Below are positions 24 to 57,114 of a stretch of DNA of 64,000 bases, piece by piece. Origin of the DNA: Owenia fusiformis (Eukaryota; Annelida; Polychaeta; Sabellida; Oweniidae); assembly GCA_903813345.2 (NCBI GenBank), contig CAIIXF020000010.1:33655425-33719424 (forward strand). The letters run 5' to 3'. The position numbers and the translations under genes were made by a program. Below the pieces are notes generated by a model. That model was given only the letters and a program-made list of their open reading frames with translations. It was not told the DNA's origin and made no database searches. How positions within the stretch are numbered: position 1 is the first letter of the stretch; each line of letters begins with the position of its first letter.

Positions 24-194
24 CTGAAAAACAAATGTTTAATGGTTGTTAAACCAGTTGTTTCATTGATTGGATTTGGATTTGAATCATGGCCATGGAG
101 TTATAATTATATTGACAGTGAACAACATTTAAATACTTTAATTTAAAAATAAAATTCACAGTATGATGTATTATTAGAACAAATGATATCTTAC
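24..194 (-). other. Probable spliceosomal intron inside the mariner transposase
   Basis: After AAG at 195 the minus strand reads GTAAGATATC, then 171 AT-rich bases ending TTGTTTTTCAG at 24. Joining across it restores the family sequence: INAVYIAK, then VLKRDLQR in phase 0. Mariner transposases usually have no intron, and the residues expected at this point (an INxxYxxxVLKR-like string) appear only after removal. Confidence 0.75.
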
Positions 195-893
195 CTTTGC
201 AATGTAAACGGCATTAATTCTCTGGCCAATGGGAACAAAATGGGTTAACACCATTCCTCTAATGTCAAAGAATGTCACAACCATTTGTTTCTTTTGTGGA
301 ATTCCTGGCCCTACTATTTTAGGCTTGGTTGGTGTTGGGGAGTTGTCATGTTTCCACGATGAACTTTGTTGCGTGGTCTCTGGGATGTAGAATGATAGCA
401 ATGATTCGTCACTCGTAATGATCTTGTTAAGAAAGTCATCTCCATCTCTCCGATATTTTGCAAGAAAGTCCCTTGAAGCCTTAACACGCCGGTCTTTCTG
501 CTCCTGTGTCAAGTCATGCGGCACCCATTTAGCAGACACCTTCTTTAACAGACAGTTCTTTGTCAGTATCCGTTGCACAGTCCCATAGCTCAGATCGTGT
601 TTTTCAGCCAATTCTCTGATAGAAATTTGCCTATTGTCCATAACATCAGCTTCAATTGCTTTGATGGTTTGATCATCGAATGACGACACTGGCCTGCCTC
701 CTCGCTGCTTGTCTACCACTTCATCATATCCACTGGAATACTTGTTAAACCACCTGTAAATGTTTCTCTCAGCAATGGCAGCTTTACCATATGCCTTCTT
801 TATCTGTCTTATAGTCTCTTTTACACCTTTCCCCAACTTTACACAGAACTTAATGTTTGTTCTTTGCTCTATTTTACTCTGACTTGGCGCCAT
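195..893 (-). CDS. Mariner transposase, first exon
   Basis: The frame opens at ATG (MAPSQSKIEQRTNIKFCVKL) and runs 233 codons to AAG at 195. The N-terminal third is the paired helix-turn-helix DNA-binding domain (residues about 10-125), with the linker motif GGRP near residue 66. The family motif WVPHDL is near residue 123, and TSDES near residue 161 supplies the first catalytic Asp of the DDE/D triad. The following PETTQQSSSWKHDNSP is typical of mariner. The remaining catalytic Asps should lie left of the window. The frame can be read six more codons before a stop, but these fall in a probable intron. It is not part of furin. Confidence 0.9.
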
Positions 894-1476
894 CTTGAAT
901 TGGGTGGGTTAGTGTCCTTGGTCATGTTAGTATTTGTCATGGATGATGGAAGCAATTCAAAGAAATTGAAAGCTTTTTATGAATGCCTATTGTGACATCA
1001 CAACTATTACATATTTGTTACCATGGCAACAAATATAAAAATCATAGAAAACAAACAATGAACATTTTCAAATGTTACTGACTTTTTAAATTAGAGAAAT
1101 TCACAAAAACGTTATGGTTTCTCTTCAATTTGCCCCGGGTTACGCGATATCGGGTTACTATAGCAACCATAATTTCAACCAATGAAATGATTGAATTCCA
1201 ATCTTTGAGATGGTAACTCAGAAATGTTGTGGGTACATGTATACCAAATTTCATGAAGATCTGATGAATACTTTTGAAATTACAATGTCTTTGACGTTAC
1301 TTCTGGATCACCCTGTAAGTAACACATATTCCCTTAAACTCTTCCAAATTCAATCTTCCCTCCTCCATATATCTTATCCTAGACCCCCTCCATATACACA
1401 CTATAGACCTCCTCCATATAAAGTAGACCCTCTCAAGATATACTAGACCCTCGCTCTCTATTTATATATACTAGAC

Positions 1477-1565
1477 CTCCTATCCTGCTATGGTAGGCAA
1501 CTCCGACCCCACAATTCTTGTTATTTTTTAACATTGATACAGTCCCTGCACACCGTGTCCCATGT
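1477..1565 (-). CDS. furin: Furin catalytic His exon, version 3 (possibly decaying)
   Basis: This 89-bp exon is phase 2 in and phase 1 out. The acceptor is ATCGGCAG, and the donor is GGAG/GTCTAG, which has GT but otherwise fits the consensus poorly. The split codon gives Arg, then [20 protein letters not shown] and [10 protein letters not shown]. About 21 of 29 residues match version 2. The Glu after HGTRCAG, nearly invariant in convertases, is Thr here. The catalytic His, both Cys residues and the Asn of the calcium-site-1 loop remain. It lies 7.7 kb beyond version 2, on the far side of a 5.2-kb inverted-repeat element. It may be a third alternative exon or one losing its donor. Confidence 0.68.
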
Positions 1566-2109
1566 CTGCCGATGACACATAAACACTTATTTAGTGACAC
1601 ATAAATATAAAATATTGATACACAAGGTGTCATCTCTGATAAAAAAAGCATCTGACCCATAAGAAATATGGATACATAAATATAAAAATAGAGATATGTA
1701 CAGGACACATAAATATTTATACATTGACACATAAATAGAAACATAGACACTTAAACATGCAAACTACAGCTAAAAGCAAGACACTTAATTAATTACATTA
1801 CAGTAAATGTATGTAAGTAAAAACATTTCAAATATTCATGAATTTTCTCTATTGGCGACATATTACCTTAATAAATATATAGAAATTAATAAAATAAAAA
1901 TAAAAGTTTTGTATAAGATATGAATACATATTTACTCGGGGTGGAAAATTTTCTAAGAGGCTCCGTTAAGGAAAAAATGACTTTATGAGCTGGATGGAAT
2001 TTCTGTGTATTTTTTATTCTATTAGGGTGTCCTGCATAAAGTATTTCGCCTGCGAAGCATATAACTATTGCGAACATATCTAAATACTGGTAAGAAGAAG
2101 ACATACCTT

Positions 2110-4270
2110 GAATTTTTTAGAAAAAATTGGCTAAAAATGGAAACTACAAGAAGTCAAAATGTTCAACTCAAACAAAGTTGTAGCTATTCTATATCAATAT
2201 TTTGTGTTATGTTAGGTTTCTCAGATGTTTCAAGACCTTCATTAGTACACTTTTGTCTCGAAATGTGACATTTAAGGACAAAATTTGGCATTTTTAATCA
2301 TTTTCGCTTTCAGCATTAACATATAGTTCCTTATATCTCGAGTTTAATGCTGACTGGTTGTTGCATTTTTGATTAAATCTGTGCTTGTACATGTGTTCTT
2401 CCATTTGAGGTATAGAAAATGTATAGTGGACAACCAATGTTCGTATGAGAGCTTTTAGATCTCCCCTACCCCATTTATTATGGAAAATTACCGAAAAATA
2501 TGAAAAAATAAAATAACTTGAAATTATAAACTTTAACAAAGTTGTAGCTATTCTGTGTCAATATTATGTGTTATTTAATGTTTTTAAGATATTTCAGAAC
2601 CTATATCGGTATACAAGTGGCTAGAAATGAGACATTTAAGGACAAAACTTGGCATTTTTTGTCATTTTCGCTTTCAGCAGTAATATATAGTTCCTCATAT
2701 CTTTGGTTTTATGATGTCTGATTGTTGCATTTTCAATCAGATCTGTTCTTGTGCATGTCTTCTTCCATTTAAGGTACAGAAAATGTATAGTAGACAAACA
2801 ATGTTCATATTAGAGCTTTCAGATCTCCCCTACCCCATCAATTAGGGAAAATAAACGAGAAATATGAAAAAATAAAATAACTTGAAATTATAGACTTTCA
2901 TAAAGTTGTAGCTATTCTATATCAATATTATGTGTTATTTAATGTTTTTAATATTTTTCAGAACTGTTATTGGTATTCAAGTGGTTAGAAATGAGACATT
3001 TAAGGACAAAACTTGGCATTTTTTAATCAATGCTGCTTTCAGCGGTAACATATAGATCCTCATATCTTGAGTTTTATGCTGACTGGTTGATGCATTTTTG
3101 ATTAAATCTGTTCTTGTACATGTCTTATTCCATTTAAGATACTGAAAATGTATAGTGGACAAACAATGTTCATATTAGAGCTTTCAGATCTCCCCTACCC
3201 CATTTATTGAGAAAGAGTCGAAGGCATGCGAGGCGAATCCTGGAAACCCGGTTTGAGAAAGCAGGGTTCACTGTTTGTTTCCGTTGACAATTGTGCGAAC
3301 TACATTCACAATTCATACGACAGTGAACAGGAGGTTTACAGTCAGACCCGGGTGCGCCAATCCCTTATTTAAGGGTTTAAGGCCATTGCAAACGAAATAC
3401 GTGTTAATGAGGCCACGAAATATAAAAGATTGTTTTATTAGAATTTTATACGTGTTATTTTGTATCTACCAAGACGTTAAACATATTGAAAATAGTTACT
3501 TATTATGACTGGTCTTAAATGTGCAAAGCTAGAAGACACCTTATACTCGTTCGTTCTCTATTTTGACTGAGATAAAATATCAGTACAATGGCTACTAAAA
3601 GAAGGAAAAATTACATATACATATTACAATTGATAAGGAGGAACCCCTCTAATAAAAAATTTTGATGACGGCAACCCCGGGTTTTGAGGGTGCGACTTAT
3701 GGCAACGAGTACTTCTGCATTTATAAGGGAAGATGAGCGGAAAATATAAAAAATAACTTCAAACTACCACTATAAACTTTAACAAAGATGTAGCTATTCT
3801 TTATGTGTTATTGATTGCTATAATTAATGTTTCAGGACCTTTATTAGTATACTAGTGTTGAGAAATTAAGACATTTAAGAACAAAATTTGGCATTTTCAT
3901 CAATTTTTCATCATTTCCACTTTTAGCAATAACATATAGTTCCATATATCTTGAGTTTTATGATGATTGGTTGATGGATTCTTGATCAGATCTGTTCTTT
4001 TGCCTATCTACTTTGATTTAAGGTATTTAAAAATGTATATTGGAAAGTCTATCATTATATTAGAGCTTACATATCTCCCCTACCCCATTTATTTTGAAAA
4101 AAATAACCAGAGATATAAAAACCAAACAATTTCAAAGTATAGACTTTAACAAAGTTGTCGGTATTCTAGATCAATACTATGTATTATTTGATATTTTTCA
4201 GATGTGTCAGGAACTTCATGAGTATACAAGTCTAAAAATTAGACATTTAAAGTTGAGTTGCAAATGGGGC
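2110..4270 (+). repeat. Left arm: five 364-bp tandem units
   Basis: The marker AAAGTTGTAGCTATTCT or a close variant recurs at about 2173, 2538, 2902, 3782 and 4147. Spacing is 364-365 bp except where a 510-bp insertion splits the fourth interval. Each unit also contains GACATTTAAGGACAAAACTT and the block CAGATCTCCCCTACCCCATT. Confidence 0.85.
3208..3717. mobile_element. Insertion within the left arm
   Basis: About 510 bp of less AT-rich DNA interrupts one 364-bp unit. It is flanked by the direct repeat CATTTAT at 3201-3207 and 3718-3724, as a transposition duplication would be. No clear terminal inverted repeat or family was recognised. Confidence 0.55.
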
Positions 4271-4870
4271 GGGTATTCTCTATCTTTGTCCATTGGGCAA
4301 ACTGCTCATTAATCTATGCAATGTATAGTAGAACACTTGGAATATATTTAAAAGTAATGGGGTATAGTAGTGTGATAATTATAACCAGTGATCAAGCCAC
4401 ATTTGTTGAATTCCTTCATATCAATTGCAATGTTGTCAACAGCTTGGTGATTTCCATATTACACCTAAGGGTGGTGTAATTAGGAAGTTCATGAAGGATA
4501 TTGGGCTAGGGGATATTTTGGTAAATGCAAACATTGTGAAATGAGGAACAGCCAACAAGATGATTTTGGAAAGGATTATTGAATGGTAAGCTGTCTTTGG
4601 TTTGTGAAGCAATGTTGCTGTATCTCTAAAATGGGATGAATTTCACTTATGGCAGAGCTGCTATTGAACTTTGCAAAACTGATAGTTGCAACTTATAGAC
4701 AATCTATCAAATACTGATCATGAAGAAGTTGACACTCTCCTTATGGCCCATGTCTACTACAGTGCTGCTGACAAGACAAATGAATTCAATATTGAGAGAA
4801 TTTGTATTCAGTCTGATGATACAGAATGTTGCTTGCCAAGAAGGATGAGAGTTAAAAAGAGCTCTTAAAG
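4260..4870 (+). pseudogene. Decayed coding core of the inverted-repeat element
   Basis: Short stretches on the plus strand look like worn coding sequence: SVIIITSDQATFVEF near 4370-4420, QLGDFHITPKGG near 4440-4475, GTANKMIL near 4547, and DHEEVDTLLMAHVYYSAAD near 4718-4775. From memory, DQA, G-FH and HEEADT-like strings occur together in multi-copy predicted proteins of marine invertebrates. I cannot name the family. The pieces lie in different frames and the copy looks non-functional. Confidence 0.45.
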
Positions 4871-5379
4871 TTTGTTATGTCCTTCAAGATAGCATTCTAA
4901 ATTACTATATGAATGGGTGTCTTGTACCAGTACTCACAAACAAACCTTCAAAAATATGGTAGTGTAGTAATTTTATCTCTAATATGTATATTTGTGTTTA
5001 AAACACATTTTCCATGCTTTGAAGATAACAAGACACATAATTGAATATATATGATCTAAAATATGTCAACTAATCACCATTCAACTAAAAATATAAACAA
5101 CTATTGCTGAAAGTGAAAAATTGGTCATTTTGCCCATTTATGTGTCATTTTTTGATTTTAGTGTGCTAATAAATGTGCTAAACTTTTGGAAAGTCTAAGA
5201 ATATTAACATGCAATAATAACATTTGTTTTGGTTTTCTTATTAAATGGTGGAGGGCAGATCTTAGACCTCTAATAAAACATTTGTTTTCTTACATACATT
5301 TTCTTTAACTTAAATCAAAGAAGACAGATTCAATAAAAAACATATTTGAATCTATCATCAAAGAATTATAATTGTGGAA

Positions 5380-7000
5380 AATTATATGCTACTGCTAAAT
5401 GCAGAATGCTGAAAATGCCAAATTTTAGACACATGTAATCAAATGAAGGTTACATTAAATAATAGTATTGATAGAGAATAGCTACAATTTTGTTAAAGTT
5501 TATGATTTGAAATTACTTTTTCATTTACATTATAAATGGGGCAGGGTAGACATGAAAGCTCTAATATCAACATTGGTTGTCCAATATACATTTTTTATAT
5601 CCTAAATGGAAGAAGACATGCACAAGAACAGATCTGATTGAAAATGCAACAATCAGACATCATAAAACCCAAGATATGAGGAACTATATAGTACTGCTGA
5701 AAGCGAAAATGACAAAAAATGCCAAGTTTTGTCCTTAAATGTCTCATTTCTAGCCACTTGTTTACCGATATAGGTTCTGAAATATCTTAAAAACATTAAA
5801 TAACACAGAATATTGACACAGAATAGCTACAACTTTGTTAAAGTTTATAATTTCAAGTTATTTTATTTTTTCATATTTTTCGGTAATTTTCCATAATAAA
5901 TGGGGTAGGGGAGATCTGAAAGCTCTACTATGAACATTGGTCATCCACTATACATTTTTTATATCTTAAATGAAGGAAGACATCTACAAGAACAGATTTG
6001 ACTAAGAATGCACCAACCAGTCCGCATTAAACTCAAGATATAAGGACCTATATGTTATTGCTGAAAGTGAAAATGGTAAAAAAAGCCAGGTTTTGTCCTT
6101 AAACGTCTCATTTCTAGGCACTAGTTTACCAATAAAGGTTCTGAAATATCTTAAAAACATTAAATAACACATAATATTGATATAGAATAGCTACAACTTT
6201 ATTAAAGTTTATAGTTTCAAGTTATTTTATATTTTCATATTTTTCTTATAATTTTGCATTATAAATGGGGTAGGGGAGATCTGAAAGCTCTAATATGACC
6301 ATTGGTGGTCCACTATACATTTTCTATACCTTAAATGGATGAAGACATCTACAAGAACAGATTTGATTAAAATTGCAACAACCAGTAAGCATAAAACTCA
6401 ATATATGAGCAACTATATGTTACTGCTGAAAGCTAAAATGATTTTAAAAAATGCCAAGTTTTGTCCTTAAATGTCTCATTTCTAGGCACAAGTATACCAA
6501 TAAAGGTTCTGAAATATCTGAAAAACATTAAATAATACATAATGTTGATATGGAATAGCTACAACATTGTTAAAGTTTATAAATTCAAGTTATTTTACTT
6601 TTTCATATGCTTCAGAATTTTTCATAATAAATGGGGTAGGGGAGATCTGAAAGCCCTTATATGACCATTGGTGGTCCAATATACATTTTTTGTATCTTAA
6701 ATGGAAGAAGACATGTACAAGAACAGATTTGATCAAAATTGAAACAACCAGTCAACATTAAACTCAAGATATAAGGAACTATATGTTACTGCTGAAAGCG
6801 AAAATGATCAAAAATGCCAAATTTTGTCCTTAATTATCTTATTTCTAGACACAAGTGCACTAATGAAGGTCCTTAAACATCTGAAAAACATTAAATAATA
6901 CATAGTGTTAATATTAAATAGCTAGAGTTTTGTTTGAGTTGAACATTTTGACTTTTTGTAGTTTCCATTTTTAGCCAATTTTTTTCTAAAAAATTCAAGG
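5380..7000 (-). repeat. Right arm: five 364-bp tandem units, inverted
   Basis: The complement of the left-arm marker (AGAATAGCTACAACTTTGTT and variants) recurs at about 5475, 5820, 6184, 6552 and 6915, spacing 345-368 bp. The block AATGGGGTAGGGGAGATCTG recurs with the same period. The outer segment 7000-7165 mirrors 1932-2104. Confidence 0.85.
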
Positions 7001-8161
7001 TATGTCTTCTTCGGACCAATATTTAGATATGTTCGCAAGAGTTATATGCTTCGCAGGCGAAATCCCTTATGCAGGAAACCCTAATAGAATGAAAAATACA
7101 GAGAAACTCCATCCAGCTCACAAAGTCATTTTTTGCACAATTCTCACACCTTCCACCCCGAGTAATTGCCCAACTGAAGTAAATGCCACGCAATAAATTC
7201 AATTTAAATTCATGAAAATTCTGTTTTTTTTATAAAGTTTTAAAAAGGTAAAGAATTTGTGTTAGTGAATGAACATGCTTGTTTGAGATAAAGTATATAT
7301 GTGCCACCAAATTAAACAATATCAATCTTTAGCATAACCTCAAAATCACAGAACCAGAATCATAGAATTACAGGATCATTTATATTGGTAGTTATTTATT
7401 TTCTTAGTGCTAATCTTGGTGATTACATATACTGTATCTTTTCTATAAATCTAAACATTTTGAAAAAATCTAAGGTATATTTTCAAAACATTTTGATTGT
7501 AAATTATATTCAGTCCTGTCTTAAGTACCCAGTCAAAAATCGGTCTCAATTCATTTTTGCAATATCGGGCAATTTTTGACTCAAGTCCAGGACTTTGTAT
7601 TCTACCCGAGTGCAGAACTGAGTATTCAACCTGAGTGCAGAACTGAGTATTGAGTCGAGTGCAGAACTGTACTCAGGTTTGTTAGAGTGTTAAAAACATG
7701 CACTCACTCAAAAAGTAACACAATGGTCAAATTTTAGCGAGATAAATTAGCAGGGGTGATATGAAAATGCTTGATACTAAGATACCAAAACTTTGACCAT
7801 TATGCTCTTTTTATTAAAAGTGAATTTACAAAACAGTTTTATGAACAGTCGCAAGAATCCATTCAAAGGCTCCATTAATATATATGAGATTATCAAAATA
7901 GTGGAACATTTTCTAACGTCTGTGCACGAGACTTTCAAGAAATGTTATCAAATAAGCTTAAGATGTATCTCTCTGTTGAGAAAACATGTACATGTAGAAA
8001 TAAAATTTGCATTTTGTCTGAGAAAATAAACCTGTATACAGTAGTTGACTGAACTGTAAACTGTAAATCATTATATTCATGAAGAAAAGATTGCATAAAA
8101 TGTGCATATACTTAAGGAGAATGTGTTCACATTGCAGTGCATGAATATATACTCAATGAGG

Positions 8162-8458
8162 CAGAGATCACGATAGTTGAAAAAAAACTTGTTAGCCATT
8201 GTGGCTAATTCTTCACAAAAAATTTTAGCCAACAAAAATATGAAGTAGCCATTTTGACCGAAAAAAATTAAACGCTTCTAATGACTGTTTTCCTTTTAAA
8301 AAATGGAATATCCAGATTTTGCCTTTAAGATTGTTAGGCATTTTTTATGGCATTTTTGGAGGGGGTGTCGACTTTTGGTTTGCAACCGATACATATTTTT
8401 CGCCACCTCTTTTGAAAATTTGTGATTTGCGAATGGCGAACGTCTACCGTGATCTCTG
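8162..8458. mobile_element. hAT-like MITE
   Basis: Ends are CAGAGATCACGATAG at 8162 and its near-complement CTACCGTGATCTCTG ending at 8458. They are flanked by direct repeats AATGAGG at 8155-8161 and 8459-8465. CAG-type ends and a 7-8 bp duplication fit hAT. 297 bp, no coding. Confidence 0.75.
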
Positions 8459-8737
8459 AATGAGGTGTTCACAATAAATATAATAAATATCCCTATGTAC
8501 TGCAATATGTTTGTGATAAATAAAGGTTGTACACTGTACATATAATAAAAAAAAGAAAAAGTGATAAAAGATACTTAGAGATGATGTTTTATCAGAGATA
8601 TGGGTGCATATAAAAGTGAAAGACCAGGTGTAAAAAATATTGAAGACAAATGCAATTTTATATCACACATATCTTAGCATATTTGATTGCAAGTAAAATG
8701 TTATCTAATCATATGTATGTCAATATCCACATTTAAA

Positions 8738-8910
8738 ATGTCCGTCTGCTCATGCTTATTCACTTATTTCTTTCTAAAATTTGAATAAAGTGTCAGATTT
8801 TCTTGCATTTCTATACAATTTAGAGTGTTGACTACATGCCTGTTTACTTTATTCCTTGCTAATTCCACTCTTTGGTAATTTATTTTACATTTTAAAATAT
8901 GACCATCATA
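8738..8910 (+). mobile_element. Pearl/Helentron-like repeat, one core unit
   Basis: Complete left end (ATGTCCGTCTGCTCATGC), one core and the right end (ATGACCATCAT). Confidence 0.8.
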
Positions 8911-9270
8911 ACATTTTACTCGCATATATTGTGAAATAGCCTTAAAGTAGTGTAAGACTTATTTAGATTAACTAAGTGTCCCAAGATTCAAAATCAAAAC
9001 TTCATTGAGAAATTAACTTGTGTGAATAAATTAATATTATTAACTTATATACCTCTGTCTCCGAATTCCTAGTTTTTCAAGAAAGTGCCAAACTTAGAGC
9101 GAGTACTTCGCACATTTTTAATGAAGTCAATCAATGAAGTTTTCATATATGAATTTGGGAGAAGCATATTATAAAAAGAATGCATCGTCACACTGATGAC
9201 ATGTCACAATTAGCATGGCATGTCACACTTAGCATGGCATGTGTCACACTTCTTAGCGATTACACCTTAC

Positions 9271-9356
9271 CTCCTATTTTTGCATTATAAGCTACACCAA
9301 CAGTACAAACGTTATTTTTGGCCGCTGAAACTTCACCCGCACACCGAGTTCCGTGC
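9271..9356 (-). CDS. furin: Furin catalytic His exon, version 2 (canonical)
   Basis: This 86-bp exon is phase 2 in and phase 1 out, with a TTCCTCTAG acceptor and a GGAG/GTAAGG donor. The split codon gives Arg, then [20 protein letters not shown] and VAYNAKIGG. This is the closest of the three copies to ordinary furins ([19 protein letters not shown] in human). The loop between EV and Cys is one residue shorter than in the other two versions. It has the strongest combination of a pyrimidine-rich acceptor and a consensus donor, so it is probably the default form. Confidence 0.92.
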
Positions 9357-9865
9357 CTAGAGGAAGAAATAAAGCCAGGATTTTAGCGATAAATGAACGC
9401 TGGGTAATAACTGAAGGCTCCTGGGATAGCGTGGTCTCTTCTGTGATGTCATAATGGTGTCCTAAAATGACCAACAGCAGACTAATAGCCGCATGCTACT
9501 AATACGGGAGTCACAAATGTATAGCAATCCCCACCCAAGGACAATTCTAGATTTTTGAATATTTCACTATTTAGCCACTGATGTTTTCAAAAATGAATAT
9601 CAGAAAATAAATCTATTGATTTCAATCAATTACAAGATTTTATTTGACCTTGCTCTATTTGCAAGAACGTTAAACTTTCTAATTTCATTATAATTTGGAA
9701 TAATACCATACAGGCATCCACCGATTATCTTCAGCATTTATTCACCTGAGCTAAATTTTGCTCAACTCGGTGATACTCAAAACGGTTGAGATTGCTTTAC
9801 ACGAGATTCACACATAACACGATACACATGCTATAAAACTGAGGGTCAGCCATGCTTAACCTTAC
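9357..9865. other. Short intron between His exons 1 and 2
   Basis: 509 bp, the shortest intron in the visible gene. No mobile element recognised. Near 9735-9800 it reads ATTTATTCACCTGAGC and CTCAACTCGGTGATACTCAA. Confidence 0.7.
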
Positions 9866-9954
9866 CTCCGATACCCGCCTGAAAGGCGACCCCCACGTTA
9901 CATATGCTATTATCTGACTTGCTGGCTACTTCCCCAGCACAGCGCGTCCCGTGG
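9866..9954 (-). CDS. furin: Furin catalytic His exon, version 1
   Basis: This 89-bp exon is phase 2 in and phase 1 out, with a TATATGTAG acceptor and a GGAG/GTAAGG donor. After the split codon it reads [20 protein letters not shown] and ends [15 protein letters not shown] carries the catalytic His (human His194), and both Cys residues are kept. Three differences from the usual sequence stand out: the residue before His becomes Ser instead of the near-universal Arg, the calcium-site-1 loop reads SKSDNSICN, and NARIGG becomes QAGIGG. About 19 of 29 residues match version 2. It is the first of three copies in transcription order, 509 bp before version 2. It could be an alternative exon or a decaying duplicate; the intact frame, signals and motif favour use. 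Confidence 0.85.
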
Positions 9955-13473: not shown

Positions 13474-13550
13474 CTGTTTTCATTGGTGTAGTCGTATCTA
13501 GGTTGCGGATCTGGGTCATGGCTGTTGACGTCATAGCTGGCACCTGGGTC
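13474..13550 (-). CDS. furin: Furin exon: calcium-site strand before the catalytic His
   Basis: This 77-bp exon enters in phase 0 (ATTTCAG acceptor) and leaves in phase 2 (AACAG/GTCAGT donor). It reads DPGASYDVNSHDPDPQPRYD and ends YTNEN plus two bases (AG) of a split codon. The three Asp residues in DVNSHDPD line up with human Asp174, Asp179 and Asp181, which hold calcium site 2. The split codon is completed by the first base of whichever His exon follows, so residue 193 (Arg or Ser) depends on that splice choice. A SINE-like fragment starts about 40 bp upstream of its acceptor. Confidence 0.95.
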
Positions 13551-21840: not shown

Positions 21841-21975
21841 ATAATTTTCTGCCAAGTCAGGGTGATTTTTTTCAATACCATCATCAAGTATGGAGACGAC
21901 GATACCCTTCCCAGTGTACCCCATGGCCCAAGCGCCTTGCACGTTCATATCTAATCCTCCACTTGGCGCACGATT
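21841..21975 (-). CDS. furin: Furin exon: catalytic Asp region
   Basis: This 135-bp exon has 45 codons and is phase 0 at both ends. Its acceptor is TTTTCAG and its donor is TAT/GTAAGT. It begins NRAPSGGLDMNVQGAWAMGY and continues through TGKGIVVSILDDGIEKNHPD to LAENY. The first Asp of ILDDG is the catalytic Asp (human Asp153), and the Asp of HPDL corresponds to a ligand of calcium site 1 (human Asp162). The residues around the Asp are furin-type rather than PC1/PC2-type, which settles the subfamily. It reads straight on into DPGASYDVN in the next exon. Confidence 0.96.
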
Positions 21976-28808: not shown

Positions 28809-29304
28809 ACATTTATATTTTAGGTAATATTGCAGTTGAGAAGAAGATACAGAGGTCAACATAAACTTGGCTCAATTTTAGCAACTTTCAAATTTTCCGA
28901 CTAGGTCCGTCAATCATGAGTTCAAAAATAGCCCATAGAATTCTAGTTACGAAGAAACTATGTCTGAATTTTTTTTATCTCCTTCTATAAATTTGTAGTA
29001 ATCTGCTCATGGTTGGGTAGACTTAGTACATACTAATTATCCTATTCTAAGATTTTCTATGATACACAATATAATGTATTGATCAGAAAATGAAAATGTT
29101 TGGATTATTTGTCCCAATAATTTTTATTGACTTGTATTGGCAATTCTTTCAACAGAGGTTCTATTCATCCCTTTGAATCTTTTCCCAGATCAAAATATTG
29201 ATAAACTTCAATAATTTTATTAATCATATTTCATTGATTATTTACCAAGGGATCAAACTTTATTCCTGTATAACATTACTTGCCAGTGTACCTAACATAC
29301 TTGT

Positions 29305-29680
29305 AACATTAATCTAACTTACTTGCCAAGTGATCTAACTTACTTGTCAAGGGATCTAACTTACTTGTCAAGGGATCTAACTTACTTTCCAAGGGATCTA
29401 ACTTTCTTGCCAAGGGATCTAATTTATTTGCTAAGGGATCTAACTTACTTGTCAAGGGATCCAACTTACTTTCCAAGGGATCCAACTTACTTGTCAAGGG
29501 ATCCAACTTACTTGTCAATGGATCTAACTTTCTTGCCAAGGGATCTAAATTATTTGCCAAGGGATCCAACTTACTTGTCAGAGGATCTAACTTACTTGCA
29601 ACTAAGGGATCTAACTTACATTCCAAAGGATCCAATTTATTTTCCAAAGGATCTAACTTACTTTCCAAGTGAACCATTGT
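29305..29680. repeat. 21-bp tandem array, about 17 copies, open on both strands
   Basis: The unit is TTACTTGTCAAGGGATCTAAC with few variants and one spacer of 3 extra bases. Because 21 is a multiple of 3 and the unit lacks stops, it reads as a 7-residue repeat on both strands: K-L-D-P-L on minus and L-T-Y-L-S-R-D on plus. The minus frame has its only ATG close to the array (MVHLESKLDPL). Coding use is unproven. Confidence 0.9.
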
Positions 29681-30419
29681 TTGTTGGCAAGGGCCACAAA
29701 TAAAAAAAAATAAGGAAATTGCGATGCAGTGAATGATAATCAACTACATTTAGCAATAGAAACTTGTTCAGATATTGCGGAAACACTTCTTAACACCCGT
29801 TTGCACAAATGTTGATTTAACAGAGCCTTCTTAACGATTTTTACGAGTAACTTGTCAATTCTGATTATTAGTTTTCCCCGATTACATCCCGAGTAGTAGC
29901 AATACAAAGAGTATTAAAACAACTTCTACATTCTTGTGTGGCAAATCACCATGGAGATGGTAGTCCAAAGGTGGTCTGAATTTGAAAATGTAAAAAGTTT
30001 GATAAAAAGTTAAATAAACAGGCAAGCTGTGAGTCTGTAGCCACAAAAATGAAACAACCATAGCCTAAATTCAAAGTTACTTCAAAAATCTAAAAAATAA
30101 GACTCGCTTTTTAAGATTTTAAATTATTTTCTCCATCTACCCTGTCAACTTCAAGGTCTAAATTCTTACACATAGACTAGATCACCTCATCAACAAAATC
30201 AAATCTGTGCAAATGATCTAGCAAAACATATAAAAATAGAGTAACATTCTACTGAGTGTGTTCTTATTTCATTGGTTCCAGTTGTAAAAACAAATCTACA
30301 TGGTCCATTTACCCTGTTACAGATTTGAAAAATGTGATATATCTTTCCTTTTCCAAATCAAGCTTTATTCAATTGACCAATTTTGGCATTTCAATATAAT
30401 TTAAGTTGTAATTTCAAAA

Positions 30420-30975: not shown

Positions 30976-32458
30976 AATATTTATCTAATGGATACACCTA
31001 CTGACGCTTTACCAGATAACAAGAAAACACACTTGCTTGATGGTGATAATCTGGTTAAAAAAACAGGAACCGAAGATAATAAAACATCAGCTGAAAAATT
31101 TGAAATTGGGTCAATTGGTGTTTCATTGGAACATATGTGAAACAGAACACCAGATGGAACTTAGTAATAGGAAAGTATAAGAGAATATAGAATATGATCT
31201 AGGTATAATGAAGAATCAATGATGGCAAGGATATGGATATATAAATTATATAATCCCTTATTTAATGACATTGTTGGTGATCTCTTCAATTTTAGGTTTT
31301 TTGAGTGAAATACATGTACATGCCTAATATATACACACTTGTAAATCTTATGTCCCCTTTTCTTCCCAGGAGAACATCTTTCATTATTTGTTTTAACTCT
31401 GAACCTTTGACTATAGCATTATCTCCAAAGAAAATCTGGAAAATACTGCCCCTCATACCTTCTGCTTATACTGCCCTCCCACTCTATCTTACTCAGTGAG
31501 GAGATATACAGGGTTTTGACACAAGACTAGCTCAAGAATTCGGAAGCTTGTTTATGAGAAAGTAATTTGAAAGAAAAACATATCAGTGTCGGTTTCCCTG
31601 TGGTATGATCCTGAAACAATTTCCAAAAAATATTTTTGTAACTTAACCCGAATGACACCAGGTTCTTAAGTGCTAAACCACAAAATCTAAAGCCCATTAT
31701 TCCACACTGGAAGTTTTATATCTCTGTTGAAACCATGACAAGAAAAATAATGATTAATTCTGGCAGTTTATTGCATCGATTTAACATCATGGTGGCCAGA
31801 TTTTTATGTCACCCTCAGGTGCTATATTGTGATCAGCTTGCCGGGCAGGGCCAGGGCAGGTGTCTAATAATCTTGTTCCTAAATGATACTATTTAAAGTA
31901 TCAAGAATGGTAATGATGTAGGACTTACGGAAATGCCAGAAACAGTTGAATCAAATGTAATCAACAAATGATGAGAAAATTCTAACCTGTTATAGTTTCA
32001 GTTCGCTTTATCTGTCAAGTGGTATGTCTGAAGATGTGAAGATAAAAAAATGAACCAATGCCAAAGAATTGAAAAGGGTTATGTTAAGCATACATAGAAT
32101 ATGAGATCAACAGTCCCTCACCCTCAGATATATCAAACCAAACAAAAAATGATAAAAACATTAGGATTTTGTCAAGCTTGGATCTGAGCTACGTTATGAA
32201 TAAGCTTATATATGAGTATTCTTCCCAGGATGCAACAGCAGTATACTTATATGAAGCACACATTTGAGCACTCTTGCAATATGGCACTATGGCAGAAATA
32301 GCAATATGAAATGTGCAGAAATGATTTATATAACACTTTAAATAGGAATGCCAGGAGAACAGGTGTTTCCTGTAGGTAGAAACATCTCCCAACCTTGTTT
32401 GCTTCTGTTCTGGATGAAAATGGCAAAACATGCTCAAATTCATTTATTCATTCATCAG

Positions 32459-32962
32459 GTTAAGGTGAGCAGGTAAGGTGAGCAGGTAAGGTGAGCAGGT
32501 GAGGTGAGCAGGTAAGGTGAGCAGGCAAGGTGAGCCAATTAGGTGAGCAGATAAGATGAACAGGTAAGGTAAGCAGGTAAGGTAAGCAGGTAAGGTGAGC
32601 AGGTAAGGTGAGCAGGTAAGGTAAGCAGGAAAGGTGGGCAGGAAAGGTGAGCAGGAAAGGTGGGCAGGAAAGGTGAGCAGGAAAGGTGGGCAGGAAAGGT
32701 AAGCAGGTAACGTGAGCAGGTAAGGTAAGCAGGAAAGGTGGGCAGGAAAGGTGAGCAGGAAAGGTGGGCAGGAAAGGTGAGCAGGAAAGGTGGGCAGGAA
32801 AGGTGAGCAGGTAACGTGAGCAGGTAAGGTGAGCAGGTAAGGTGAGTAAATTAGGTGAGCAGATAAGTAAGCAGATTAGGTGAGCAGATAAGATAATCAG
32901 GTAAGAAACTATATGAAGGTAAGGTGAACAGGCAAGGCAGGCAGGAAAGGTGAGCAGGTAAG
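32459..32962 (+). repeat. 13-bp array AAGGTGAGCAGGT, about 38 copies
   Basis: Variants GGTAAGGTGAGCA, GGAAAGGTGGGCA and GGTAAGGTAAGCA alternate in blocks, showing later duplication of longer units. Most units contain CAGGTAAG or AAGGTGAG, both consensus 5-prime splice sites on the plus strand, opposite to furin. Confidence 0.93.
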
Positions 32963-33849
32963 GTCAATCTATTTCAATTGATTATTTGACATAAACAGGT
33001 TGAAAATGCCTTGAAGTTAAACTCATAAAAAACTCCAGATTTTTTAAAAGTCTTTCAAATGTTTATTGGTATACTGTCTAATACAGGATGTAGAGAGAGG
33101 CTACACTATCCAATTGGTTTATTTTTTCTTAAAAGAGAACTTCATCTTCACATCTACAGACACACAATGAAGGGACAGGCTACAAATGTTCATAATGAGG
33201 TGTTTGCATTTAAGCGTCATCATAACACGAGGAGTCGATTTTTAAAATTATGACCATGATAATTTTAAAGGTGTACATTCATAGATTAGTTAACTACCTA
33301 TACCATTATGTCCCTTCTCCATGGAAACACTGAACATTTGTTTACACCTAGTCATTAGGGTGAAATAATTAGAAACTTAACCAATAAAAACAAGTGAATT
33401 AGGAATAAACATCCAACTATGCAAAACACCCTCATGGGACTATAGTGAAACTGTGAGAATTAAAACTTGCAATAAACAAAACCAAATTAAAGATTTCAGA
33501 ACTGATCCTCTACAGGCAAAAACATCAAATAATTCTCTTAAACTGTATTCACAAGTAGAAAAACTTGTAAAAATTCTCTAATTTGCCAAACACCTGGAAG
33601 AAGTAGAGCTCAAAGAAAATATCCAAATAAATCATACACTCTCGTGGAAGACCCCAAAAATTGACTAAACAGCCAAGTTCTAGATGTCTCAAGTTGAAGA
33701 ATTTATCAGGACTTTGCAAAAGACTGAGAAACCATCTTCAGGTCTCTTACGAAAAGATTACTATCTTATAAGATAACTAAAACAAACTGTTTTCTCCAAA
33801 CACCTTCCGGGATCTTAAGTGTTTCCCAAAAATAAAGGTCCATGGGTTA

Positions 33850-41795: not shown

Positions 41796-41885
41796 CAGGT
41801 ACCACTGCTTTGGCCACTTGGGGTCATTAAAAAATACATCCCTCTTTACTCTTCGTTTAACTACCTGCTGTTCCAGCCAGTGGAC
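41796..41885 (-). CDS. furin: Furin exon: prodomain activation site RRVKR/D
   Basis: This 90-bp exon has 30 codons and is phase 0 at both ends, with a TTTTCAG acceptor and a CTG/GTGAGT donor. It reads VHWLEQQVVKRRVKRDVFFN and ends in WPKQWYL. It carries the autocatalytic activation site Arg-Val-Lys-Arg followed by Asp, matching RTKR/D in human furin, and then the first strand of the mature catalytic domain (DPKWPKQWYL). Family knowledge says this site is cut in the ER and the prodomain stays bound. It sits 12.3 kb downstream of the previous exon and 19.8 kb upstream of the next. Confidence 0.95.
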
Positions 41886-51723: not shown

Positions 51724-53738
51724 CCCTTAAGAAAAAAGCCATGGTAACCATGGTATTCCATGGTACGTCCATGGTTTTCCATGGAAATTCATGGTTTTTC
51801 ATGGTATTTTCCATGGAAATTCATGGACACCCATGGTAATCTTCCATGGATATTTATCATGATTTTCCATGGTAATTAGTGGTTTGGTAATTGTTTTTTC
51901 ATGGACGTGTCATGGTTTTTACCAGGACACACAGAGATCCAAGTTGGACTGAGACTTATCAGTGAGAAAAAAAAGGGTAGACATTTCATGTTATTCTAGG
52001 TTTAGCAGGAACATATTAAACTCAGATTCCTTACAAATGAGAAAATGTGTAAAAGTTTTGTAACTTTTCTAAGAAATATGATAATGCAGTTAATGCAGCA
52101 CAGAGTAGGCCACAAGATTTCAAAGAGAAATATGTATAGGGCTTTTGTGTAGATCAAGACTAGATAGAGATTTTTAAGGCCAAACACTTCTTGTCTTTGG
52201 GAAAGATTAAGTCAAACTAGCCCTACCTCTGTTTTGTTTTCTTATTGTTTCTTTAATATTCAGTTATGAAAATTAAAATCAAATAATTTCAAAAATAAAT
52301 AACTCTTTTTCTTAAATTACATGTCTTACATATTAGAATGCAATAAAAACCATGGTTTCTTTCTTTGAAGTTGAGGAAACTGCAATCAAAAGCCATGGAA
52401 GACGGTTGATTGCAATCGAAAGCCATGCTTTTCCATGGTTATTTCTTTGATGTTTTGGAAAGTGCAATCAAAAGCCATGCTTTTCCATGGATATTTCTTT
52501 GATGTTTCGGAAAGTGAAATCAAAAGCCATGGTTTTCCATGGTTATTCTTTTGATCTTTTGAAAAATCCATGGTTTTTCATGGGCTATTTGTTTGGTCTT
52601 TTGGATGCAGAAAAAAGAATAGTGCATCATGAACTTTTCCAAAAGTCTCATTTAACCACATTGTCTGAAAAATCCATAGAAAAGTATATACTTTTTAGAA
52701 TTTTGACTTGAAATTAAGGTGGGGGATTTAACACAAGCCTATGACTGCAAACTGAAATGTAATGCCTAAGTGATCAAAAATCTATTTGTCTCTGTACTAA
52801 GGTTATTATAATTATGTAATCTATTTAAAAAGAAGTCATAATCATTTGCATAATTTTTAAATATTTGGTTGTCATTGTTCTATGTTAATTAGGTTTCTTA
52901 ACTCTCAAATTAGTGTTAAAATTTCTCTTTGCTACAGATTATATAGTTCATTTGCATAATTCTAAAATACATGTATTATGATCTTAATTGTTATTATTTA
53001 TGATGAGTGCCTCCTCTTCAGTAATTATAATTGTCTGTAAGTATAGACAGTGCAAGTCAAAAATTCATTGTTGATCAAATAAAACCAAATAGGATTAAAA
53101 ACACCAAGTAAACATGTCTCATCGCTCTGCAATAAGGGAATCTGGTGAGCTGATTTTATATCACTTATTTTGTTTTTTTAAATTTGTGCCAAAGTTTCGT
53201 GATTGCAAATCCCAGCAAACAGATTATTAATTGTAATTATGGGGTCAAATCATGGGCTTTCAATTCAATTATTACGTGAAAATTTCTTTATCATAGAACT
53301 AAACATATATCTAGATTATGAAAATAAGGTGCATGGTTGGATTTCAGACCCATAGCCAGCTTTTGCCAAGGGGGTTGAATTTCTCAAAAATTTGAGGGGG
53401 ACATCATATTCTTCTCTCTATGATTAATCCAGCTTGGATTCATTCATTATTGATTCAATTTGGAAGATTTTGGTAAATACAGAAACTGCCAAAATTGTTG
53501 ATTTTACAACTCCAAGTCACTTAGTATCATGGTAAAAACATGGCATTCCATGAAAAACCAATTACCAAAGCACTCATTACCATGGAAGATCATGGTAAAT
53601 ATCCATGGAAGATTACCATGGACATCCATGAAATTCCATGGAAAATACCATGAAAAACCATGAATTTCCATGGAAAACCATGGATAACCATGGGCGGACC
53701 ATGGAATATCATGGCTACCATGGCTTTTTTCTTAAGGG
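51724..53738. mobile_element. 2.0-kb foldback element built of CATGG motifs
   Basis: Inverted arms of about 205-210 bp at 51724-51930 and 53530-53738 start CCCTTAAGAAAAAAGCCATG and are near 90 percent alike by eye. Each is a run of CCATGG/CATGG words about 10 bp apart. The right arm has one extra 10-bp unit. The interior is AT-rich and has a second CATGG-rich tandem block at 52353-52590. No family was recognised and no convincing target duplication seen. Confidence 0.82.
52353..52590 (+). repeat. 52-bp tandem block inside the CATGG element
   Basis: TTTCTTTGATGTTTTGGAAA with CAATCAAAAGCCATG recurs at about 52441, 52493 and 52545, with two worn copies before. Confidence 0.85.
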
Positions 53739-54234
53739 GAGATTCCCCATAGAGCCCATGTTGTAAAACCACAAAAAGTGAAATATATTTTCTTGTGTTG
53801 GGCAGATAATATTTTCTTTTACTGGACATATTTGAATTTGCATAACTATTAGATACATAAAGGTAATATGAAAAGTGAACCATTAAAACTGATGCATATT
53901 CAAGTTTAAGGGAATTTTGCAATACCCTGCCATGTTAATTCCCCCGAATCAGCCACCTGGTGGCGAAACTGGTAACTGCCTACTCGCATCTGAGTAATTG
54001 AAATAGCCTATGAAAAAAAGTTGTACTGAGTTCCACTAACTAATGTTTCATGATTTTATATTTAAATTTTATCGTATCTCTCGAGGCTTCTAACAGCTCA
54101 TTGCTCGCACGATTGTCAGTGGGGCCTGGAAAGTCCCTGTGTGATATTTCAGTCAAATTTTAGAGAGTAATGTCAAGATATAAATATTTTGTAGCAGATG
54201 TGTGCATTTTTTGTTGCAGACGTAATGTACATAC

Positions 54235-54333
54235 CTGAGGATGTTTTATAAGAGTTCGATGATGATGGCTACTGGGGTTGGTTGATCGACGTAAAACTCT
54301 TCTGTGTTGAAAAGTATAAAATCCGGGCATTAT
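54235..54333 (-). CDS. furin: Furin exon: prodomain C-terminal part with pH-sensor site
   Basis: This 99-bp exon has 33 codons and is phase 0 at both ends. It has a TTTTCAG acceptor and a CAG/GTATGT donor. It reads IMPGFYTFQHRRVLRRS and ends in KHPQ. It matches the part of the human furin prodomain around HRGVTKRS, the internal site cut second during activation. The His at the start of HRRVLRRS lines up with human His69, the residue known to sense the mildly acidic pH of the trans-Golgi network. The Arg-Arg-Ser at the internal cleavage point is also kept. The prodomain folds the enzyme in the ER and inhibits it until this second cut. The next exon continues in frame with VHWLEQQ, as in vertebrate furins. 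Confidence 0.92.
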
Positions 54334-56430: not shown

Positions 56431-56905
56431 AAACAAGCAGGGCTTATGTCATAGCAGGAGAAGAGGGGCCATATCCAGGTGCATGGCATTGATGCGGGGC
56501 TTATGTCATAGCAGGAGGAGGGGGGCCACATGTAGGTGCATGGCATTCAGTGATGCGGGCCTTATGTCATAGCAGGAGGAGAGGGGCCACATGTAGGTGC
56601 ATGGCATTGATGCGGGGGGGGGGGCTTATGTCATAGCAGGAGGAGAGGGGACACATGTAGGTGCATGGTATTGATGCGGAGCTTATGTCAAAGCAGGAGA
56701 GGGGCCACATGCAGGTGCATGGCATTGATTCGGGGCTTATGTCATAGCAGGAGGAGAGGGGCCACATGCAGGTGCATGGCATTGATGCGGGGCTTATGTC
56801 ATAGCAGGAGGAGAGGGGCCACATGCAGGTGCATGGCATTGATGCGGGGCTTATGTCATAGCAGGAGGAGAGGGGCCACATGCAGGTGCATGGCATTGAT
56901 GCGCG
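56431..56905 (+). repeat. 57-bp tandem array, about eight copies
   Basis: GGGCTTATGTCATAGCAGGA, then GGAGAGGGGCCACATGCAGG; the last four copies are exactly 57 bp apart and nearly identical. It is stop-free on both strands, giving 19-residue repeats (minus PCTCMWPLSSCYDIS). It begins without any recognisable gene context. Confidence 0.92.
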
Positions 56906-57114
56906 GCTATGGTTTGTTCAGAGATAAAGATAGAAAATCATGTTAATCGAGCAAAATCCAATTTTTCAAATGCAATGTATAGATATTTTTCCGGTTATCA
57001 ATAGCTACTTCGCAAAAAATAATTTTATATATGTAATACCATTTATTGATAGCATTGATCAATGTTCAGTGATATTTATACAACCAGACCAAATGAATCT
57101 TATGAATAAAGTGC

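Follow-up and report, generated by a model that had tools for sequence, protein, structure and literature searches.

Three tandem versions of the catalytic-histidine exon in the furin gene of the annelid Owenia fusiformis

The 64-kilobase (kb) stretch of DNA analyzed here (64,000 nucleotides (nt) of contig CAIIXF020000010.1 (C10), positions 33655425-33719424, termed the window) lies within the furin gene of the annelid Owenia fusiformis (Oweniidae), and the exon of that gene that carries the catalytic His is present in three versions, termed h1, h2, and h3 (Table 1). The gene is on the minus strand and extends beyond the window at both sides; coordinates above 64000 or below 1 denote neighboring sequence outside the window in the same numbering, and the genome comprises 498 megabases (Mb). 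The identity of the gene was established by the translated exons A, B, and C and h2, which are identical to P0121, a public O. fusiformis protein of 921 residues with the precomputed domains PF00082, PF01483, and PF16470, and the exons also match furin chains in the PDB (best E value 7.9e-50). The catalytic segments follow the order of a kexin-type subtilase, with the Asp segment in exon B, the His in h1, h2, or h3, and the Ser in an exon encoding THTGTSASAP (neighboring stretch L019), all mapped to P0121. The P domain is represented by PF01483 on P0121, the remainder of which maps to stretches adjoining the window. Proteolytic activity of the product, with cleavage after paired basic residues, would be a prediction. 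Scans for tRNA genes and with Rfam gave no matches.

Table 1. Exons of the O. fusiformis furin gene and one further feature, in window coordinates
Feature	Position	Strand	Basis or location
h1, His exon version 1, 89 nt, Ser at codon 193	9866..9954	-	open frame, AG/GT, family profile
h2, His exon version 2, 86 nt, Arg at codon 193; version in P0121	9271..9356	-	open frame, AG/GT, family profile, protein match
h3, His exon version 3, 89 nt, Arg at codon 193; weak donor and acceptor	1477..1565	-	open frame, AG/GT, family profile
Furin exon 1	71130-70957	-	mapping of P0121
Furin exon 2, propeptide	54235..54333	-	exact P0121 match, GT/AG junctions
Exon A, propeptide end with KRRVKRD activation site and start of catalytic domain	41796..41885	-	P0121 match
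Exon B, catalytic Asp segment (SILDDGIEKNHPDL)	21841..21975	-	P0121 match
Exon C, DPGASYDVNSHDPDPQPRYDYTNEN	13474..13550	-	translation; identical to P0121
Next coding exon of P0121 (VRMLDGDVTD...)	begins -1896, 1.9 kb beyond window edge	-	P0121 mapping
Last coding exon	begins -31624	-	P0121 mapping
Mariner-type transposase frame (HTH_48, Transposase_1)	174-908	-	downstream of h3

In transcription order, h1, h2, and h3 lie between exon C and the exon beginning at -1896, all in one common phase; homologous copies in tandem that share a phase and a pair of flanking constitutive exons are the arrangement of a mutually exclusive cluster. With residue numbers counted from the catalytic His194 along the furin alignment, the exon covers residues 194 to 222 and also decides residue 193: exon C ends in ...GAA AAC AG at 13474, and the first base of the following exon completes codon 193 as AGC (Ser), AGG (Arg), and AGA (Arg) for h1, h2, and h3, respectively. 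The sole version in P0121 is h2, and the junction from 9271 to -1896 was recovered by mapping of that protein; the junction between exon C and h2 was set from the exon sequences and their translation, the automatic mapping having assigned the shared HGTRCAGEV to h1 first. All three exon lengths (89, 86, and 89 nt) are 2 mod 3. The reading frame was followed through exons A, B, and C, each subset of the His exons (eight combinations), and the next five exons. Single inclusion of h1, h2, or h3 left the frame open to the end, and these were the only three of the eight combinations to do so; when all three were skipped, the joined frame ran into a stop after 107 residues, and with two or three included it did so after 141 to 151. 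Mutually exclusive exons typically follow such one-at-a-time logic, but this is by itself no proof that more than one of the three is used.

The three exons were readily distinguished from the surrounding DNA. A profile built on 118 distinct His segments of convertases (supplied by the 233 of 301 proteins that fitted a pattern, P0121 excluded) placed h1, h2, and h3 as the top three matches in a 124-kb region, at 64.2, 62.6, and 57.5 bits, respectively, and the next of the 25 matches listed scored 6.5 bits. Pfam Peptidase_S8 matched all three, with h1 just below the cutoff (21.3 versus 21.8 bits). The 12 residues that are invariant in the 118 segments are kept in each copy, most of them being fixed by the pattern that selected the segments but R197 and N208 not. 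At the level of the whole genome, a degenerate HGTRCAG pattern occurred at seven sites, three of which are h1, h2, and h3; the reversed pattern had no matches in the 498 Mb, which rules out a chance origin. The other four sites belong to other convertase genes, which we label PC1-, PC2-, PC5/6-, and PC7-like (PC, proprotein convertase) by their signatures, and each is single, with one strong profile match in the surrounding 10 kb and the rest at or below 5.4 bits.

The exon contributes to two functional sites of the enzyme. The highest-affinity calcium site, Ca(I), is described in a review as having the ligands Asp115, Asp162, Val205, Asn208, Val210, and Gly212 (PMC12649860), and four of these six positions (205, 208, 210, and 212) are inside the His exon. 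The S1' subsite is reported to include Arg193, Arg197, and His364 (PMC11859198). His194, Arg197, Asn208, and Cys211 are kept in all three copies. The Ser193 of h1 is rare, being found in 2 of the 286 proteins with a readable motif (243 have Arg and 37 have Lys), and h1 has the common segment length. In h2 the residue between Asn208 and 210 is missing, a short form seen in 19 of 256 pattern-fitting proteins (of 302), namely P0121 and 18 others; 13 of the 19 are entries from cartilaginous fishes under the name PCSK4. Because these 18 other family members have the same length, the length of h2 is compatible with a convertase. The h3 copy has Thr201 (E201T), present in 1 of the 118 distinct segments, and Leu205, present in none. 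Swapping h1 and h2 would alter residue 193 (Arg to Ser, in S1') together with the Ca(I) loop, and would be expected to give a different prime-side preference and calcium dependence.

Splice sites were scored using donor and acceptor matrices derived from other splice sites of the furin gene, a base of only 15 sites each. The donor and acceptor scores were 2.72 and 0.99 for h1, 2.72 and -0.18 for h2, and -4.94 and -2.82 for h3. The h1 and h2 donors are identical (GAG/GTAAGG, the slash marking the exon end), and the h1 acceptor scores above that of h2. Both sites of h3 are the lowest-scoring of the three copies: 69.6% of the 6593 GT dinucleotides in the 124-kb region score as high as or higher than its donor (GAG/GTCTAG), and an AG lies 20 nt upstream of its acceptor AG, so that the AG-free stretch is 18 nt versus 47 nt for h1 and 41 nt for h2. 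The furin gene has another weak donor, CAG/GTCTCT, which ranks near the bottom of the 15. By these matrices, the predicted sites of h1 are at least as good as those of h2, and those of h3 are poor. An earlier note on this DNA had described the three HGTRCAG exons; their coordinates, open frames, AG/GT boundaries, and single phase were reproduced here, with the correction that the poor donor of h3 makes the three unequal.

Differences at first, second, and third codon positions numbered 8/6/20 for h1 and h2, 8/9/20 for h1 and h3, and 7/7/16 for h2 and h3, third-position excesses with p values of 0.002, 0.0075, and 0.019, respectively, and the differences between h1 and h2 are mainly at silent positions. 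None of 20,000 neutral simulations per pair (three runs) was open with the observed protein identity, in a harsh design that puts all of the divergence on one copy and starts from the present-day copy. A milder neutral test, likewise begun from present-day sequences, gave a chance of an open frame with 11 invariant residues kept of ∼0.036 after 9 changes and ∼0.008 after 13, alike for h1 and h3. The ratios of nonsynonymous to synonymous differences (pN/pS) were 0.31 to 0.49 among the copies, 0.19 to 0.47 among the four other convertase exons, and 0.16 to 0.52 across both groups, with the highest copy-to-paralog value (0.52) for h3 versus the PC5/6-like exon. Changes specific to one copy were distributed over the codon positions as 4/2/7 in h1, 3/1/4 in h2, and 3/3/3 in h3. 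There may have been earlier constraint with recent release of a copy; the even spread in h3 is as might be expected from release, though nine changes decide little, and h3 may be a decaying copy.

The three exons share 57 to 64% of their bases pairwise, and a same-strand comparison of their 200-nt flanks gave no match between copies at E ≤ 1; because 36 to 43% of aligned bases differ and the flanks are unrelated, the exons are neither chance matches nor haplotype duplicates. Tandem repeats are frequent around these exons, as an assembly artefact or haplotype duplication might predict, but such an origin is highly improbable given this divergence and given that the 501 base pairs (bp) around h3 matched only themselves in the genome, a search that skips simple repeats and very common words and that likewise yielded no sign of h3 as a derivative of a dispersed repeat. 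We conclude that the locus holds a real, unusual triplication of an exon in the furin catalytic core. The best reading, to which we assign a probability of roughly 0.55, is that h1 and h2 form a mutually exclusive pair used one at a time and that h3 once served as a third cassette or does so only rarely, because the sites of h1 score like those of h2 and the differences between the two are mainly silent. A less likely alternative holds that only h2 is used, with h1 and h3 as relics of an old exon duplication, silent since splicing factors prefer h2. It would account for a P0121 that contains h2 alone, for the worst of the donors (-4.94) and the close upstream AG at h3, and for the evenly distributed h3-specific changes, but it sits poorly with an h1 that has the same donor as h2, a better-scoring acceptor, an intact frame, and the invariant residues; an open frame with 11 invariant residues kept has a chance of ∼0.008 at 13 neutral changes when started from today's sequence. 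It is rather unlikely that all three copies work in a three-way switch, with h3 confined to a certain tissue or stage and an activator required at its weak sites: the open frame and 57.5-bit profile score of h3, the third-position excess between h2 and h3, and the presence of the weak CAG/GTCTCT donor elsewhere in the gene would suit such a switch, but the donor and acceptor of h3 are the lowest of the three, its E201T is rare in the family, and the changes specific to it fall equally on the three codon positions.

Several observations weigh against h1 and h2 being such a pair. Their donors (2.72) score lower than any of the 15 others in the gene (at least 4.4, leave-one-out); indeed, all three His-exon donors are under the weakest of the 15, partly due to the G at -3 and at +6, seen in none of them. 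Their acceptors (0.99 and -0.18) fall at the low end of the range spanned by the 15 others (-0.2 to 11.8), the ∼509-nt intron between h1 and h2 is long for simple steric exclusion, and the changes found only in h1 (4/2/7) are by themselves no proof of constraint. A single Owenia protein was recovered, which contains h2 and is a 90% cluster of one member, and any use of h1 or h3 in transcripts is hypothetical. Finally, among the matches listed in the protein searches (120 of 317, 120 of 1745, and 120 of 1192), 15 of 17 lophotrochozoan sets share one His segment, these being single-species sets grouped by hand from the listed rows with apparent other convertases and some same-species rows omitted. 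In the Mytilus californianus set the His segments differ by one residue. Two proteins of Dreissena polymorpha (P0235 and P0268), considered as a second case of alternative His segments, are 51% identical over 415 residues and were taken as two genes; in a vole PC2 model (P0241) the two HGTRCAG segments are identical, and this looks like an error of the model. Helobdella robusta has three proteins from three contigs, each with one 30-residue segment. Because the protein database keeps 90%-identity representatives, isoforms that differ only in the His exon would be hidden. The claim in the earlier note that the His exon is normally single agrees with the 15 sets, subject to this clustering, and with the four other HGTRCAG sites.

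For the exclusive use of h1 and h2 we propose the following course. The His exon would have been duplicated in tandem long ago, and h1 and h2 would be spliced as alternatives in vivo, one per transcript; transcripts with none, two, or three copies would hit an early stop and would presumably be removed by nonsense-mediated decay. The h1 isoform would have Ser193 and the common segment length, and the h2 isoform would have Arg193 and a Ca(I) loop one residue shorter, with the catalytic triad kept in both. Isoforms differing inside the active domain, as had been suggested for all three exons, are plausible for h1 and h2 on the basis of the single-inclusion frame, but P0121 has h2 only and h3 may be decaying. 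A regulated two- or three-way splicing switch of the His/Ca(I) segment, by which one locus would yield convertases that differ in calcium threshold and prime-side specificity, is a more tentative proposal.

Repeats and other elements accompany these exons. Between h2 and h3, positions 1972-7134 are foldback-like, with arms 1972-2137 and 6969-7134 (90% complementary) and 2145-2855 and 5519-6229 (88%) and with 364-bp tandem repeats inside; the transcribed sequence could form a very large pre-mRNA hairpin between the two exons. Downstream of the catalytic-Ser exon (L019:1966-2868, about -7080 to -7980) are 11.9 tandem copies of a 76-bp unit with 93% matches, the unit repeating the last 45 nt of the Ser exon plus its GTAAGT donor with a pyrimidine-rich CCAG or CTAG in front. 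Ten pattern-matched units of this array, counting the real exon end, have 45 nt each in frame, like a string of mini-exons. The PC5/6-like paralog (L032:2964-4433; C10:26.78 Mb) has twelve tandem copies of a 123-bp unit that copies what seems to be the acceptor of the exon after the His exon, along with the first ∼30 codons of that exon; a minisatellite at an exon edge is thus present in a second convertase gene. Two exons at window coordinates -13512 to -13865 (L020) and -20725 to -20877 (L021) each have the P-domain end WTLVLYGT near the start and a length divisible by three; P0121 carries both in series, and they are perhaps alternative exons fused in one model. The list of open reading frames also includes minisatellite-like repetitive frames at 29296-29743, 32444-32963, 56567-56946, and 53504-53934.

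The gene resembles furin/kexin-type convertases in its Asp, His, and Ser segments and its KRRVKRD activation site and differs in having three His exons rather than one. Splice forms known for furin and the PCs vary in the tail or in regions other than the catalytic core. No described case of alternative His exons in a convertase was found among the open-access results listed, subscription literature being mostly outside that scope, and the same statement in the earlier note holds to this extent. With the tandem duplicated exon substitutions surveyed in human and fly (PMC9741552), the locus shares tandem homologous exons, one phase, and, as that survey reports, ligand-contacting residues that are mostly kept; here the exon carries a protease catalytic His, whereas the main text of the survey contains no words beginning with "protease" or "PCSK". 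Exons 4a and 4b of OGDH are reported to be mutually exclusive, change the calcium sensitivity of the enzyme, and owe their exclusivity to distant branch points (PMC7969005). Exclusive exons that touch the calcium response of an enzyme would be common to both, as proposed here for furin, but unlike in OGDH there is no sign of distant branch points at h1 and h2, because the AG-free stretches are only 47 and 41 nt.

If h1 and h2 are both used, calcium dependence in the secretory pathway and the choice of substrates could be set in O. fusiformis by splicing and not by a separate convertase gene. The three exons would amount to a naturally occurring test of which portions of the Ca(I) loop and the S1' region tolerate change around a fixed catalytic His. 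A switch at this single locus, if true, would do a job that is otherwise done by separate PC genes.

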